In this document: positions 3,546 through 36,541 of the stretch, piece after piece
Position numbering within the stretch: the first letter of the stretch is position 1
Layout of the letters: every line of letters starts with the position of its first letter
Origin: a virus
Reading direction: 5' to 3' (one strand)
Virus record (IMG/VR): IMGVR_UViG_3300025146_000030
Span: 1-41,274 of that record
DNA length: 41,274 bases
Notes under the pieces: model-generated
Seen by the model: only the letters and a program-made list of their open reading frames with translations
Told to the model about the DNA's origin: nothing
The model's database searches: none
Made by a program: the position numbers and the translations under genes

Positions 3546-3788
3546 ATGACAAGAGATGGAACAGAGGAAACGGGTGGAAAGGGTGAGCTGGTGAAGGAAC
3601 TGGCAGAATGGATTGACACCAACACTATTGCGGAATTGATTGTGGAAGAGATGGAAGATGGGGAATTGGAGCTGGATCTCCCCACAGCCAAGAATATTTG
3701 GCTGAGTATGCTGGAGGAAATCTCCAGCTATCTGAGAATGATAGTGGATGGGATTCTGGAAGTCCAGAGGGGTATGGAACCGAAATGA
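3546..3788 (+). CDS. Hypothetical acidic protein, 80 aa
   Basis: The ATG at 3546 is preferred over a GTG at 3534 because AAGGTGG (3531-3537) sits 8 bp upstream of it and would overlap the GTG. The product is acidic and predicted helical (KELAEWIDTNTIAELIVEEMEDGELELDL) with no known motif. Its TGA stop overlaps the ATG of the AAA+ ATPase gene in an ATGA junction, indicating translational coupling. It is therefore probably a partner or adaptor of the ATPase/VWA pair; this is inferred from context only. Confidence 0.6.
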   Translation: MTRDGTEETGGKGELVKELAEWIDTNTIAELIVEEMEDGELELDLPTAKNIWLSMLEEISSYLRMIVDGILEVQRGMEPK

Positions 3789-4669
3789 TTCCAGAGAAGA
3801 AACCATATTTTATCTCGGATGAGAACAACGCCAAATTGAAAGCACTTATGAGGATCAGGACTAGGCAGCCGATAAATATCCTCATAACTGGGAAACATGG
3901 GCTAGGTAAGTCCATGTTAGCCCGACAAATTGCGGCGCATTGGAAACTGGATTATGTACCAGTCCCAATTTGCCAATTACAGGAAGTTGGACAGCTGATG
4001 GGGCATTTGGAGCTGGTAAATGGTGAAACCAGGTTTGTACCTTCGGACTTTACCAAAGCAATAAAGGCTCCAAATACAGTCGTACACCTTGAGGAACTAA
4101 ATCGCCCAGAAAGCCCGAAAGCGTTGGGGGAATTGTTCCCAATTCTTGATGATGCACGGGCGATCTGGCATGAACATCTTGGAGAGGTTAAGGTAGCTCC
4201 AGGTGTGGTCTTTGTTGGGACTCTCAATGAAGGATTTGAATACTCTGGTATTGATCCCATGGATGAAGCTCTACGGGACCGATTCTTTATGATACACCTG
4301 GACTACTTTCCCTCCAAGATTGAAGGTACTCTGGTAAGTATGCTAACTGGGCTTAGCGGGGAAGTGGTGGATGGGATTCTGGAGCTGGTCAACAAGCTCC
4401 GAACTAATGCTAAAGAGCCAATCCATGTGTCCACCAGACGCATGATAATGATGGCCGAAATGATTGGAGAGGGGTTGGGGATCGTGGACTCTTTCAAGTC
4501 CTGTATTGGAACCGACCAAGACCAGACAAGATTGGAAAGTGTGCTGATTGAGTTGGACTCTATGGCAAGCAAGGTTATGCCACAATTGGCTAACTGGACA
4601 CCGAAACCGTTTGATAACAGCAATGGCAAATCCAAAGAGAACGATGGATTTGGATTGCTGACTATCTGA
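3785..4669 (+). CDS. MoxR/AAA_5-type AAA+ ATPase
   Basis: A single AAA+ domain of 294 aa. Walker A is GKHGLGKS (residues 36-43), Walker B lies in VVHLEELNR (about 98-106), sensor 1 in GTLNEG (about 143-148), and a DEALRDRF arginine-finger region follows near 160. This matches the MoxR/CobS/AAA_5 branch, whose members act as ATP-driven chaperones or remodellers paired with a von Willebrand A (VWA) protein. The very next gene is exactly such a protein. A longer frame begins at 3698, but the 3785 ATG sits in an ATGA overlap with the upstream stop and begins the conserved N-terminus. The target of remodelling in infection is unknown. Confidence 0.85.
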   Translation: MIPEKKPYFISDENNAKLKALMRIRTRQPINILITGKHGLGKSMLARQIAAHWKLDYVPVPICQLQEVGQLMGHLELVNGETRFVPSDFTKAIKAPNTVVHLEELNRPESPKALGELFPILDDARAIWHEHLGEVKVAPGVVFVGTLNEGFEYSGIDPMDEALRDRFFMIHLDYFPSKIEGTLVSMLTGLSGEVVDGILELVNKLRTNAKEPIHVSTRRMIMMAEMIGEGLGIVDSFKSCIGTDQDQTRLESVLIELDSMASKVMPQLANWTPKPFDNSNGKSKENDGFGLLTI

Positions 4670-4682
4670 GAAAGGCAAAAAG

Positions 4683-6353
4683 ATGGCTAGAAGTGGTAAT
4701 TGGCGGATACGAAAGTCCACGATACCAGCTATAGAAGGTGCGAATGTGCTCAGAGTGTTGGGCAGATTTGGGGGCATAGTTGGGGTTAATCGCCCAATCA
4801 GTTTCAATACCGAAGTGAGCTATTTGGATACGGAGAAAAAGGATATCCATATCCAAGGGTTATTTAATACTTACCCTGTGGATGGGGAAGATATGGATGT
4901 AATGGTTGGCTTCATGCTCCATGAAGCAATGCATCTGGTGCGGGAATCGGACAAAGTTTATGAGCGTTTCAGAGACGTACAGTCTATTAAACCAGGCAGC
5001 CCATTCTGGTACTTTCTCAATATTGGAGAGGATATTCATGTAGATTTGGAGATAAGGCAATCCCTTCCAAATCTAAATGAGTATGTCCAAAAGGCTAGGG
5101 ATTGGGCGGCAAAGCGGAAAAGAGCATATCGGAAGGATAATTTGCTGGAGACCTGGTGTGAGTTGGAGCTATATGGTAATAAACAGGCTCTAATGGACGC
5201 TCCAGATGAAATGCTGGAACCGTTGCAAAACTTGGTGGAACTCTCTAATAAGATCAAATTAGATGGCTGGGGTGGACGAGTGGGGGACTACTGGAACACA
5301 TGGGTTTTAATAACGGACTTTGTGGAAAACCAGCATAAGGAAATCCAAAAAGACCAAAAAGCCCAACAGAATCATCCTAAACAACAGAAAAAGGATATGC
5401 CAGATAAGAAGGATTCCAAACCCGAACCCCCATCCTCTAAATCTGAATCTGAACCGCAACCACAAAAGGACATGGAATCGGGGGAACCCAAGCCTGAACC
5501 TGAACTGGAGCCGGATTATATGCCTACTCCAAATGCCAATGTTACCAATACCATAGACCCTGAGTTGGAAAAGCTAATACAGGATGCTTTGGAAAAGGAA
5601 ACCGAAGATTTGACGGAAGAGATTGGGGAGTTATTGGTGGAATCTGGAACCCAGTTGGGAAATTTCACAATTATCCAAACAGTGAACAAGGATGGGGCAC
5701 TATTAAGCCCCAATAATGAGCTGGTTGGGAAGCTAAAAGTGGTGTTGTCCATCAAAAAACGCCTGCAAAAACGGGACTTGCGTGGGGAAGTGAATGGTAA
5801 AATAGATACCCGAAAACTGCATAGAGCAGTGATGGATGGTAAATGCTTCAAACAGAGGTTTAAGTTTCCTGGAAGTTTCCCAGAATCGGCTATTTTGCTG
5901 GACTTATCTGGAAGTATGACCACAGAACAGAGACAAGAGGTTATAATGGCATCCTGTGCTATGACAGCTTTGGTTAAGTCCAAGGTGTATGGGTATCAGG
6001 AGAGGAACAGACAGGTAATGGTTACTAGATTGGATGAGGGGTATAAGGTGCGGGTGGAAACTGCGGGTGGTAATACCCCATCGGGTTTGGCTCTGATAAC
6101 TACTGCCAAACAGCTAAAACGTGGCGGGTTGGTTATCCATCTTACTGATGGAAAGCATAACAAAGGGATCAGCCCATATCATACTAGACCCGTCATTGAT
6201 AAGATGGGAATAGATGTGGTTAATGTTATATGGGGAGATAATGCTACACCGGATGCCTACGATGGAATGATTATAAAATCCATCAAAGGCTTGGCGGAGT
6301 TCCCATCCGCACTGCAAGAATTACTGGTCGAAAAATTGGGGATACGGTTTTAA
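4683..6353 (+). CDS. VWA protein with HExxH metallopeptidase-like domain
   Basis: This 556-aa protein has three parts. The N-terminal domain carries HEAMH (residues 80-84) followed by NIGEDIHVD (113-121), the arrangement of the putative metallopeptidase domain in DUF2201/CobT-like proteins. A Pro/Glu/Lys-rich linker occupies about 220-290. The C-terminal VWA domain has a MIDAS motif DLSGSM (407-412), a threonine in GGNTPSG and LTDG further on. Known relatives pair with MoxR ATPases to load or remodel protein complexes. Here the pair is phage-encoded, 13 bp apart and preceded by AGAAAGGCAAAAAG. Whether the HExxH site is catalytic cannot be judged by eye. It is the largest early gene. Confidence 0.8.
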   Translation: MARSGNWRIRKSTIPAIEGANVLRVLGRFGGIVGVNRPISFNTEVSYLDTEKKDIHIQGLFNTYPVDGEDMDVMVGFMLHEAMHLVRESDKVYERFRDVQSIKPGSPFWYFLNIGEDIHVDLEIRQSLPNLNEYVQKARDWAAKRKRAYRKDNLLETWCELELYGNKQALMDAPDEMLEPLQNLVELSNKIKLDGWGGRVGDYWNTWVLITDFVENQHKEIQKDQKAQQNHPKQQKKDMPDKKDSKPEPPSSKSESEPQPQKDMESGEPKPEPELEPDYMPTPNANVTNTIDPELEKLIQDALEKETEDLTEEIGELLVESGTQLGNFTIIQTVNKDGALLSPNNELVGKLKVVLSIKKRLQKRDLRGEVNGKIDTRKLHRAVMDGKCFKQRFKFPGSFPESAILLDLSGSMTTEQRQEVIMASCAMTALVKSKVYGYQERNRQVMVTRLDEGYKVRVETAGGNTPSGLALITTAKQLKRGGLVIHLTDGKHNKGISPYHTRPVIDKMGIDVVNVIWGDNATPDAYDGMIIKSIKGLAEFPSALQELLVEKLGIRF

Positions 6354-10973: not shown

Positions 10974-11699
10974 GTGGATATAGTGGTGGACGTATTCGAA
11001 CCAGACCATCTGGCCCAACTTTTATCCCAGTTTTTAAGAGTCCATAGGGAGAATTTGGTTGTCAAGGGTCTGAGTGATTACTTCTGGTTTGCGGGGGATG
11101 GGCACAGGATTACTTTGGAGCGAAAAACTTGGGCAGATTTAATTGCTTCCCAAGGCAGGATAGAAACACAATTAAGAATGGCTACTAATAATGCGGAGGA
11201 AGTTGGGTTAATTGTAGAAGGCATAGCGGATCCATTATATGGCGGTGAGATTGGGCTGTTTCAGAAAAGTGGGGATGGGAAATGGTTCCGCCGAGCAAAG
11301 ATTAGTGATTGGAGGTACGATGCTCTCCAAGCTTTCCTGTACCGTTTGGATAAAGAGGGAATAACGGTTTATCATACCGCCTCTATGGAGGCCACATCGT
11401 GGGCATTAAAGGCTTTTGTGGAAAACTCACAGAAACAAGAGTTTACCACAATGAGACGGTATGTTAAGACTAAGCCGATTCTTTGGAAGCCTGACCCTAT
11501 AATGGAGACTCTTATGGGAATTAAGGATGATAAGGGACATATTCTTGGGGAGAAAAAAGCTGCGGAAATAATTAAAAGGTTTGGAAGTATTTGGAAAGCC
11601 ATCCATAGAGACCCGGATGAGATAGCTTCGGTGTGTAGTGGGATTGGATTGGCTACCGCTACCAGGCTTATAGAATTGCTGAAAAAAGACGGGAGGTAA
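10974..11699 (+). CDS. XPF/ERCC4-type nuclease with HhH domain
   Basis: The GTG start is 9 bp after GGAG (10961-10964). The N-terminal ERCC4 nuclease domain shows DVFEP (6-10) and the signature ERK-x3-D (E49, R50, K51, D55). The C-terminal 60 residues form tandem helix-hairpin-helix (LGEKKAAEIIKRFGS... and CSGIGLATATRLIELL), the DNA-binding part of XPF/Mus81-family flap and junction endonucleases. At 241 aa it is a compact archaeal-like arrangement without helicase. The expected job is cleaving branched DNA such as replication forks, flaps or recombination intermediates before packaging. Confidence 0.85.
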   Translation: MDIVVDVFEPDHLAQLLSQFLRVHRENLVVKGLSDYFWFAGDGHRITLERKTWADLIASQGRIETQLRMATNNAEEVGLIVEGIADPLYGGEIGLFQKSGDGKWFRRAKISDWRYDALQAFLYRLDKEGITVYHTASMEATSWALKAFVENSQKQEFTTMRRYVKTKPILWKPDPIMETLMGIKDDKGHILGEKKAAEIIKRFGSIWKAIHRDPDEIASVCSGIGLATATRLIELLKKDGR

Positions 11700-13140: not shown

Positions 13141-13308
13141 ATGAAATTAGTGAAATTTTTATTACTGGTTCTTACAGCGGTTTGTTTTATAGTGGCTGTG
13201 GCTTTGTTACCAGAGATACCCAGCTCCTATGAAAATTCATGTTATCTTTTTATAAGCACTTTTTACTTCCTATGGGTATATTTGTTTATCAATGAGGCGG
13301 ATGAATAA
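13141..13308 (+). CDS. Small two-span membrane protein, 55 aa
   Basis: GGAGTTAAAGG precedes the ATG. The product has a basic start (MKLVK), a first hydrophobic helix at about 5-23 (FLLLVLTAVCFIVAVALL), a short loop with PEIPSSYENSC, and a second helix at about 34-50. The tail is acidic. This topology suits a holin-like, antiholin or superinfection-exclusion protein. It sits in the early arm, far from the holin candidate of the late arm, so exclusion or membrane anchoring is at least as likely as lysis. Confidence 0.65.
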   Translation: MKLVKFLLLVLTAVCFIVAVALLPEIPSSYENSCYLFISTFYFLWVYLFINEADE

Positions 13309-13323: not shown

Positions 13324-13521
13324 ATGGAACTAAACACTAGACAGAGAGCCATTCTGAGTCTGCTGGTAGCCGGATACCGCACTGCTGAAATAGCAAAGAT
13401 ACTAAACTGCGAGCCATCAAAAATCAACTATGGAATTAGGCAAATAATGGAAGGATTTGGGGTAAGAAACCGACCAGCACTGGTATATGCGGTATGCAGG
13501 AAAGGCATAATCAAATTATAA
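13324..13521 (+). CDS. Stand-alone LuxR/GerE-type HTH protein, 65 aa
   Basis: The whole 65-aa protein is one LuxR-type helix-turn-helix: TRQRAILSLLVAGYRTAEIAK (helices 1-2), NCEPSKINYGIRQIMEGFG (recognition region) and a last helix PALVYAVCRKG. GerE-like single-domain regulators bind palindromic DNA as dimers. A second one, distinct in sequence, is encoded in the late arm (36260-36541). Either could read the TAGAAC-N4-GTTCTA array or the other dyads; no pairing is shown by the sequence itself. GGAAGGAAAAA precedes the start. Confidence 0.8.
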   Translation: MELNTRQRAILSLLVAGYRTAEIAKILNCEPSKINYGIRQIMEGFGVRNRPALVYAVCRKGIIKL

Positions 13522-13535
13522 AGGAGGGAGAATAA

Positions 13536-14102
13536 ATGGCAGAGGTAACAGTAATAGCACCAGAGAATGTAGTTGTGGGTGGAGAGTTTGATGTGGCAAT
13601 CAAAGTTTCAACAGTGGTTGACTTTGATGCGGGGCAATTCGATTTAATCTACAACAAAACACTAATGGAGTTGGTGAGCGTGGGTAATGGTGAAATAGGT
13701 GGAACAGTTATTCCCCTAGCTGTCTATAACCCGAACTACTCAATAAACTCCATGAGAGTTGTTGTAAATGTGCCGGGAATCCCAGGTGTCAGCGGTGAAG
13801 GCACGCTGGCTGTGGTAAGGTTCAGGGCGTTAAAGAGTGGGGCTTGCGAGATTGGGGTTGCCAATGGTTTCATCAATGACAATCAGGCACATGAGATAGT
13901 TTCCACCTATACCGGGGATGAAGTCCAATTTTTTCGGCTCGGAGACGCCAACGGAGATGATAGGGTGGATAATCTTGATGTTACTTATATTGGCCGTATT
14001 ATTTGTGGCCTTACGGCTCCGACATTAGGGGCGGATGCAAATAGAGATGGCAAGGTAAATACGGCCGATATGACCACCGTTGAGATTATGATGGAGAGTT
14101 AA
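13536..14102 (+). CDS. Cohesin-dockerin two-domain protein
   Basis: 188 aa. Residues 3-130 look like a cohesin domain (beta strands, 'VGGEFDVAIKVSTVVDFDAGQFDLIYN' region, 'GEGTLAVVRFRALKSGACEIGV' region). Residues 133-188 form a type I dockerin with two calcium F-hands: D137, N139, D141, D148 and D167, N169, D171, D178. In cellulosomes these two modules bind each other tightly and Ca-dependently, so one chain carrying both could self-polymerise. There is no signal peptide, anchor or catalytic domain. AAAGGAGGGAG drives translation. It lies in the early arm between a LuxR-type regulator and zinc mini-proteins, an unexpected place for an extracellular-type assembly protein. Confidence 0.8.
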   Translation: MAEVTVIAPENVVVGGEFDVAIKVSTVVDFDAGQFDLIYNKTLMELVSVGNGEIGGTVIPLAVYNPNYSINSMRVVVNVPGIPGVSGEGTLAVVRFRALKSGACEIGVANGFINDNQAHEIVSTYTGDEVQFFRLGDANGDDRVDNLDVTYIGRIICGLTAPTLGADANRDGKVNTADMTTVEIMMES

Positions 14103-22903: not shown

Positions 22904-23095
22904 CTAACTTTCCCTCACAAATTCCTTAAACTCTGCCCCAAATCCGCAGATTGGGCAGTATTCCCATTTGTGTATCACGAATATTTCCACATAATATTTA
23001 TATCCGCATCTAGGACAGACCATCTTGTATCTAATCCTATCCACATCATCTAAATCTAAATACCCCTTCTCCGTCTTATTAGTCTGAAGAACCAT
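22904..23095 (-). CDS. Zinc-ribbon protein in the tail module, up to 63 aa
   Basis: CPRCGYKY and CPICGFG form a classic zinc ribbon with a Lys/Tyr-rich centre. The start is uncertain: the ATG at 23095 lies inside the preceding gene without a Shine-Dalgarno, and the ATG at 23023 (MVCPRCGYK) gives 39 aa. The gene stops 1 bp before the tailspike start. Its role inside a tail-fibre cluster is unknown; it may be a small structural or chaperone-like protein. Confidence 0.55.
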   Translation of the reverse strand: MVLQTNKTEKGYLDLDDVDRIRYKMVCPRCGYKYYVEIFVIHKWEYCPICGFGAEFKEFVRES

Positions 23096-24471
23096 TTCGA
23101 CACTGTAACGGCGGCGCCAGTAATACTTGCCGACACAGTAGAGACTCCAGCGGAAATACCAGCCATAATACGGTCTCTAACAATGTTTCCTGAACTGGAG
23201 GCAATTCCTGCCGATATACCCTTTATGCCTCTATCTCTGGTAGCATTTCCACTAACGGTTGCTACCCCGGCAGATAATCCAGCAAGTGTTACGATCTCAC
23301 CGCCAGCAGCAGCAATGCTTACCGAGTTGGCTGTATTGGTGAATATATCGTCATCATCATCGTCATACCAGATAGGCTGGAACTTGCCACCCCATGTAGA
23401 TTTCATACAACCCGCACTCACCCAACGCATATCATCTTCGGCGTCATCCTGCATGGTCTGGTTAGCAGCACTCCAGGTAGTGCCACCATCAGTAGATTTT
23501 CGGTAATAACATTTAACATCGCTACCCCAAGCCGTACCACCCAAATAAGCAACATATAAATCATCATTCACCTGATTTATAAATACTGAGCACGCCGCAT
23601 ACTCTGCCGTATTGGTTATGATATTCGTTTTGGCCGTGATGCTTCCCGAACCATTTATGTCCCAAGCCATTAAATCCGAGGCTGCATTATCCAGTTGCGA
23701 CCAGGCTACAAAGATAAGATGCCCATCCGATAGCCGAACTCGCCCATCCATATTTAGAATCGTAACAGTGTCGAGCATATTCAGCGATATGGATTGCTCA
23801 CCCCAACTGTTGCCAGAATCATCAAAGGTCTTTAAGGAGATTTCGTTAGCACTTGCATCCCAATATGTTGCCCAAATATCTTGATTATCAGCCTCGTTCC
23901 CTGGGAACAGTAGAAGTATATCGTAATTGTCAGCTTCAAATGGGCTTGTTCTGCTTGTCCATGTGTCCCCGTCTGGTGAAGTGTAGAAAGCAGTTATATA
24001 AGCACTGGAATTATCTCTATGCCTATAAGCAACGGCTATATTCCCACCCCTGGTTTTTGTTATTGAGATAAGATTGTTTCCAAATAACGAGACGACAGTA
24101 TAAATAGTCCCATCACCACCAGCATCCGCAACTTTGTCAGGTGTACTTAGTGTATCGGTTGAGGTTTCCAAATTGACATACATAATATCGTCAAGTGTGG
24201 AATCTATATAGGCAATATGGATTTTAGTTCCTGCATCCCCTGAGACCTGCCAATCGGCAAAAGCATCGCAAGCCACATTTACATTGCCACTTATCTCTAC
24301 TACCCCACCCCATGTAGCACCACCATCAGTTGTTTTCTGATAGTTCAGGTCACGAGCAGTGTCCAGATATACCATGTATCCGATAAGGGGTGACTTCCAA
24401 AATATGCCACCACGCAACTGCTCATAATGCAAATAATAACTTGCACCAGACTCTATAGTTATGTCAGCCAT
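23056..24471 (-). CDS. BNR/sialidase-like tail protein with C-terminal repeats
   Basis: 471 aa. Asp-box motifs such as KTTDGGATW and KSTDGGTTW, with a related SPDGDTW, indicate a sialidase/neuraminidase-like six-bladed propeller over residues 20-390. The C-terminal 80 residues contain three near-identical units built on AGLSAGVATVSGN / KGISAGIASSSGN / AGISAGVSTVSAS with RDR linkers, ending in a basic tail (FFRLIRRRRG). Phage proteins of this type act as adhesins or glycosidases on the tail. The catalytic Arg triad of true sialidases cannot be verified here. The start overlaps the upstream gene by 8 bp. Confidence 0.7.
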   Translation of the reverse strand: MADITIESGASYYLHYEQLRGGIFWKSPLIGYMVYLDTARDLNYQKTTDGGATWGGVVEISGNVNVACDAFADWQVSGDAGTKIHIAYIDSTLDDIMYVNLETSTDTLSTPDKVADAGGDGTIYTVVSLFGNNLISITKTRGGNIAVAYRHRDNSSAYITAFYTSPDGDTWTSRTSPFEADNYDILLLFPGNEADNQDIWATYWDASANEISLKTFDDSGNSWGEQSISLNMLDTVTILNMDGRVRLSDGHLIFVAWSQLDNAASDLMAWDINGSGSITAKTNIITNTAEYAACSVFINQVNDDLYVAYLGGTAWGSDVKCYYRKSTDGGTTWSAANQTMQDDAEDDMRWVSAGCMKSTWGGKFQPIWYDDDDDDIFTNTANSVSIAAAGGEIVTLAGLSAGVATVSGNATRDRGIKGISAGIASSSGNIVRDRIMAGISAGVSTVSASITGAAVTVSKWFFRLIRRRRGI

Positions 24472-35987: not shown

Positions 35988-36267
35988 AGTTTGTACCTCC
36001 CATTCTCTCCTTGTTAAGTTCTTGCAGTTCCCTTCTCGAAGCCCATACACACATTGAACAAGGCTCCGTTTCACCTTGTTGATGGTAAACATCAAACAGA
36101 GCCATTATTTCCTCATCAGTTAGCTCATTATACGGTTTATTAAATATATGCCATGGAGCTTCCGTTATCCCCATAGTCTGTCTAATCTCTGAGCGTAATA
36201 ACTCCAGGGCACCAAGTGTTGGTCTTATAGCCTCTTCCATTACCAATTCAAGTCTTGTTTTATTCAT
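35974..36267 (-). CDS. Hypothetical protein with CSMC, 97 aa
   Basis: Overlaps the LuxR-type gene by 8 bp and the 388-aa protein start by 14 bp. The first 40 residues are helical (MNKTRLELVMEEAIRPTLGALELLRSEIRQTM). CSMC near residue 70 could hold a metal with other residues. The C-terminus is basic and Gln/Glu-rich. No known family; it probably acts in assembly. Confidence 0.6.
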   Translation of the reverse strand: MNKTRLELVMEEAIRPTLGALELLRSEIRQTMGITEAPWHIFNKPYNELTDEEIMALFDVYHQQGETEPCSMCVWASRRELQELNKERMGGTNYGRE

Positions 36268-36541
36268 CTATTTCCACCTTCATACCATATTTACTTCCCA
36301 TTTCTATCCTCCGCTCTGATTCCTCATCTTGGGGAACCCGCCAATAGCTTATCTTGTCCACCAAACCCAATTCCAAAACACACAGCACCATCGCCGTCCG
36401 GCTTTCTACTCCAAGTTTATTACAAATCCGAAAAATAACGGACTTAATCCCGCCCTCGGACATATCCAATCTCGAAGCGATTTCTTTATTGGACAGTCCA
36501 GCCAATTTAATTACCGACAATTCCAACTTAGAGAGTTTCAT
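36260..36541 (-). CDS. LuxR/GerE-type HTH protein in the head gene block
   Basis: 93 aa; residues 1-57 are a LuxR-type HTH (LSKLELSVIKLAGLSNKEIASRLDMSEGGIKSVIFRICNKLGVESRTAMVLCVLELGLV). The tail of 36 residues is charged. It is encoded between the portal and the 97-aa gene, where a regulator is unusual; its product appears when late genes are expressed, so it may shut down early promoters or amplify late ones. Starts 3 bp after the portal stop; no strong Shine-Dalgarno, so coupled reinitiation is likely. Confidence 0.75.
   Translation of the reverse strand: MKLSKLELSVIKLAGLSNKEIASRLDMSEGGIKSVIFRICNKLGVESRTAMVLCVLELGLVDKISYWRVPQDEESERRIEMGSKYGMKVEIDE

Follow-up and report, generated by a model that had tools for sequence, protein, structure and literature searches.

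Cohesin and dockerin modules

Cohesin and dockerin modules are normally used by microbes to build enzyme complexes outside the cell. Cohesin–dockerin pairs are among the strongest known non-covalent protein contacts, and they are regarded as extracellular tools of the cell surface. In viruses, the literature on cohesins and dockerins yielded a single case, gene 40 of Vibrio phage VvAW1, which encodes a dockerin-like protein (PMC3558961); in the literature covered, from which most subscription papers were absent, neither a phage cohesin nor a cohesin–dockerin protein without a signal was found. Cellular proteins with one cohesin and one dockerin are already known, as are phage dockerins, and what is new here is a lineage of phage cohesins that lack a signal peptide.

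A phage gene for a cohesin–dockerin protein

The window, by which we mean the whole stretch of 41,274 nucleotides that was analysed, is a 41-kb IMG/VR virus record in which homology to terminase, capsid, DNA polymerase A and portal was recognised, and it is a tailed phage. A reading frame on its + strand (13536..14102) encodes a 188-aa cohesin–dockerin protein without a signal peptide, as established from Pfam, an AlphaFold2 (AF2) model, a fold match in the PDB and an upstream stop codon. The cohesin module (residues 1-134; 13536..13937, +) matches the Pfam family Cohesin (PF00963) over residues 5-124 with 33.1 bits against a cut-off of 24.1, and its beta strands span residues 2-133; the type I dockerin (residues 135-188; 13938..14099, +) matches Dockerin_1 (PF00404) over residues 135-182 with 31.6 bits against a cut-off of 22.9, and has helices at residues 146-156 and 176-187. 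That two neighbouring curated families each exceed their cut-off within one reading frame is not a chance result, and the pairing of modules recognised in the initial annotation is thereby upheld. The two F-hands of the dockerin (residues 137-148 and 167-178) contain all eight of the residues named at the outset as calcium ligands (D137/N139/D141/D148 and D167/N169/D171/D178), none of which varies when the sequence is aligned with three structurally solved dockerins; as is characteristic of type I dockerins, Asp or Asn ligands occupy loop positions 1, 3, 5 and 12 and helices follow the loops. The reading frame is preceded by a good Shine-Dalgarno sequence (aggaggg), and its GC content of 0.46 is similar to that of its neighbours.

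With aligned window and locus proteins as AF2 input, the protein was modelled with a mean pLDDT of 79, residues 1-133 being all-beta and followed by two helices; the stretches of low confidence (158-165 and 181-188) affect the second half of the dockerin. Comparison of this model with the PDB using Foldseek returned cohesins at every rank from 1 to 42, the best being 2jh2 (E 3.5e-10) and the second 2xdh, a non-cellulosomal cohesin from Archaeoglobus, and the cohesin fold proposed for residues 1-130 thus withstood structure prediction. In the same model the linker between the last cohesin strand and the dockerin comprises only ~2 residues. The recognition positions of the two dockerin repeats, which we take from known type I dockerins, read N-L and T-A; repeat 1 differs from repeat 2, and both differ from the cellulosomal S-T type, so that the binding specificity is unreadable from the sequence. 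The +1 frame through the dockerin (13928-14025, +) encodes a strongly hydrophobic segment, MIGWIILMLLILAVLFVALRLRH, following TTTTTTCGG; it is not kept in the relatives and is probably coincidental.

Absence of an export signal

The lack of a secretion signal stated in the initial annotation is borne out at several levels. An in-frame stop codon lies immediately ahead of the ATG, and the N-terminal residues already form the first cohesin strand; a missed upstream start that hides a signal peptide is therefore impossible. Near the N-terminus, hydrophobicity over 12 residues peaks at 1.47, compared with 3.01 in the signal-bearing relative encoded on the viral contig L011. Secreted non-cellulosomal cohesin–dockerin proteins combine one cohesin and one dockerin per chain with an export signal, and the window protein has the former without the latter. 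It also lacks what defines a cellulosome component, namely a secretion signal accompanied by an enzyme, a CBM or multiple cohesins: it consists of a single cohesin and a dockerin, and the earlier statement that no enzyme is present stands.

Phage setting and gene neighbours

The replication block of the window occupies the + strand from ~1.6 to 16.6 kb, and the - strand carries the structural genes. The cohesin–dockerin gene lies within the replication block and outside the head/tail cluster, which is not the location of a virion decoration gene. The window also encodes a Sak4-like annealing protein, a primase/helicase-like ATPase and a protein that weakly matches a family of CRISPR/Cas-associated (Cas4-type) nucleases. 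The gene had been assigned to a phage early operon; the phage setting is confirmed, whilst its ‘early’ expression is something we infer from the gene neighbours only. Directly upstream is a gene for a 65-aa LuxR/GerE-type helix-turn-helix (HTH) protein (13324..13521, +; PF00196, 37.8 bits), and the same gene row contains a 55-aa protein (13141..13308, +) whose sequence has two hydrophobic stretches and for which no PHROG match was found.

Three further features of the window were noted. A second small GerE-type HTH protein (36260-36541, -) is encoded close to the portal-like gene, on the strand of the structural genes. At 3698-6353 (+), the phage encodes a MoxR/CbbQ-type AAA ATPase and, after it, a weakly VWA-like protein, an arrangement reminiscent of chelatase-type ATPase/VWA systems. 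Also on the structural strand, a BNR-like protein (23056-24471) contains a dockerin-like stretch (23632-23757, -) that scores 15.7 bits, below the cut-off of 22.9, and is probably a chance match; if it were a real dockerin, it would be a candidate virion partner for the cohesin.

Relatives on other viral contigs

No relative of the window protein was found using tblastn at E 0.01 in 50,697 phage or 72,556 plasmid records, and at E 10 the single phage match was at chance level. When related phages were sought with other window proteins as bait, the DNA polymerase found nothing and the terminase only distant phages. Relatives were found on three other viral contigs (L057, L011 and L067), L057 and L067 having been retrieved with a sequence pattern for the cohesin core; two further patterns gave nothing beyond the known relatives. 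The same fusion, for which a search of phages had been suggested in the initial annotation, exists in the phage contig L011 and in a cellular 231-aa protein (see below), and was absent from the phage records at the tblastn threshold.

The most informative of these contigs is L057 (43 kb; G002), whose phage is, to judge by its proteins, a distant relative of the window phage. Its cohesin is 47% identical to that of the window, compared with 30% for the portal, 31% for the capsid and 35% for a tail protein, making the cohesin the most similar of the long proteins common to the two. It begins at the same point as the window cohesin, without a signal, and lies among non-structural genes in both. 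Differences between the two cohesins at codon positions 1, 2 and 3 are 0.41, 0.33 and 0.63, a third-position excess that indicates purifying selection. The dockerin has fared differently: in L057 (4964-5513, -) the cohesin ends after TTTTTTCGG and the remnant of the dockerin is in another frame. Compared with the window dockerin, the remnant gives a score of 86, whereas none of 2000 shuffles exceeds 46; over the 44 codons compared, its codon-position differences are 0.48, 0.34 and 0.50, the third-position excess being nearly gone. Relative to the window, a 17-nt deletion between CGGAGA repeats is found at the cohesin/dockerin junction, and, in its second loop, the dockerin remnant has E, I, E, T, H in place of the calcium ligands D, N, D, N, D. 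Because of this deletion and the loss of ligands, decay of the dockerin appears a simpler reading than programmed +1 frameshifting on TTT TTT C.

L011 is a 4.6-kb contig with TerS and TerL, on which a GerE HTH gene (39.6 bits) lies directly upstream of the fusion, as in the window, and HNH and terminase genes follow closely after the fusion. Its signal–cohesin–dockerin protein is 41% identical to the window protein and has a strongly hydrophobic N-terminus; since this version bears a signal peptide, at least one phage has a member of the family that works beyond the cytoplasm. L067 (13.7 kb; capsid, adaptor, tail terminator and tape-measure genes) contains two circularly permuted cohesins: one with its last strands first (11027-11455, -), after the capsid gene in the capsid/head-tail adaptor interval, and one with its first strands last (5284-5745, -), between the tail terminator and the major tail protein. 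The predicted structure of one of them has a pLDDT of 65. Both would be explained if they had been cut out of register from a tandem cohesin array.

Cellular relatives

The nearest cellular cohesin found is 35% identical (88 bits) and forms the end of a tandem-cohesin protein that adjoins a dockerin-bearing substrate-binding protein. The contig that carries it is 4 kb long and was assigned to a Caldisericota bin; it has an archaeal look and may be a contaminant there. With the best match on a possibly contaminant contig, no host is claimed. On this archaeal-looking contig the tandem cohesins and then the dockerin-bearing substrate-binding protein occupy L123:1-1770, and cell-surface cohesin/dockerin systems of a similar kind have been described in ANME archaea (PMC9012536). 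Many distant cohesins were found in Thermoproteota and Caldisericota genomes, a 231-aa signal–cohesin–dockerin protein (L108) was found in a cellular genome of the phylum that includes the Bathyarchaeota locus L013, and the Planctomycetota genomes searched gave no good match. A cohesin tree separated five viral rows, the nearest cellular row and two long-branch rows from 18 other cellular rows (branch support 96/99); the tree is weakly resolved, and the order inside the group that contains the viral rows is not settled.

Proposed function

The simplest function common to the relatives would be binding through the cohesin, with the signal peptide and the dockerin coming and going. L057 retains the cohesin and has lost the dockerin, which marks the cohesin as the conserved working part and argues that cohesin–dockerin self-polymerisation is not the shared function; the ‘self-complementary’ character proposed in the initial annotation is weakened as a general function by this frameshifted dockerin, whose calcium ligands are lost. 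Moreover, between the two phages the cohesin has changed less than the portal and capsid have, and it therefore seems to be required by the virus. In the window protein the intact dockerin presumably adds a second, calcium-dependent end. Folding back of this dockerin onto its own cohesin is unlikely on the AF2 model, and the near-absent linker favours a different partner, either another protein or a neighbouring copy. Host docking or release at lysis, as suggested earlier, is possible for the window protein.

We rank three readings. Placed first, and put forward tentatively, is a phage accessory protein that serves as a two-ended connector, binding host-type cohesin/dockerin proteins and probably doing so after lysis; the binding, partners, site and timing are all elements that we infer. 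The cohesin would be the conserved working module, gripping a dockerin-bearing partner, and the dockerin a second, losable end that would grip a cohesin-bearing partner in a calcium-dependent manner. The partners would be the host's own extracellular cohesin/dockerin proteins, which, given the lack of an export signal, would be reached at cell lysis, and the released connector might then occupy or cross-link the host's surface modules, whether on debris or on cells nearby. In favour of this reading are the selection on the cohesin seen between the window and L057, the exported version in L011 and the nearest cellular cohesin, which belongs to a system with a dockerin-bearing neighbour. Counting against such a connector is the position of its gene among replication genes, an unusual place for a protein whose action is confined to the time after lysis; and since the dockerin end is dispensable in L057, ‘two-ended’ would not describe the function of the whole lineage. 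For that lineage it is conceivable, if somewhat doubtful, that a cytoplasmic cohesin is kept as a core infection factor under more constraint than capsid and portal, through cohesin–dockerin pairing inside the infected cell or cross-linking of host surface complexes at lysis.

Ranked second, and more doubtful, is a repurposed cohesin fold that acts as an intracellular Ig-like binder of a phage or host cytoplasmic protein during infection, the dockerin being a vestige. That two phages have kept a cohesin without a signal among their non-structural genes is consistent with this, as is the decay of the L057 dockerin beside a cohesin that was kept, but the calcium loops of the window dockerin are fully intact, which a vestige does not need, and L011 exports its own version. 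Head-to-tail self-assembly, in which the cohesin of one copy would bind the dockerin of the next to give filaments or a scaffold, is ranked third and is unlikely: whilst one cohesin, one intact dockerin and almost no linker per chain would suit it, and L011 has the same pairing, it sits poorly with the loss of the dockerin in L057 and with recognition residues that differ between the two repeats, and cellular proteins seem to have both modules without known self-binding. An improbable alternative is a virion-associated decoration, the cohesin serving on the particle as an Ig-like module for adhesion to the cell surface; the L067 cohesins within the head/tail cluster and the position of the L011 gene ahead of HNH and terminase genes point that way, yet in the window and L057 the gene is in a non-structural region, and in the window on the opposite strand from the virion genes. 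Least probable is neutral cargo that was acquired from a host and is being lost, with which the decayed L057 dockerin and the lack of relatives among the 50,697 phage records would agree, but which is at odds with a cohesin that is more conserved than portal and capsid and shows a third-position excess, and with the intact reading frame and ribosome-binding site of the window gene.

Retention of a signal-less phage cohesin alongside a faster-diverging capsid and portal points to a viral use of the cohesin–dockerin interaction that has not been described. The window protein is small and open to a direct test of such a use, and proteins of this kind are a possible source of new small binding pairs for protein engineering.

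Comparison with known systems

The archaeal and bacterial non-cellulosomal proteins (of Archaeoglobus, ANME and Bathyarchaeota-phylum genomes) resemble the window protein in the cohesin fold (2xdh) and in having a cohesin and a dockerin per chain (L108). They have signal peptides and belong to cell-surface systems, whereas the phage protein has no signal peptide, and the nearest cellular cohesin found is only ~35% identical to its own. With the scaffoldins and enzymes of the cellulosome (Clostridium, Acetivibrio) it has in common the type I dockerin loops and the cohesin fold, but it has no enzyme, carbohydrate-binding module or secretion signal, and only a single cohesin. Dockerin-like proteins encoded by phages are also represented by the annotated dockerin of Myoviridae sp. 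ctCL221 (A0A8S5M688); unlike the window protein, neither this nor the VvAW1 protein has a reported cohesin. Finally, the Ig-like domains of phage virion proteins are likewise small beta-sandwich accessory modules, and the L067 cohesins lie in a virion gene cluster, whereas the window gene is not part of the structural cluster and also encodes a dockerin.
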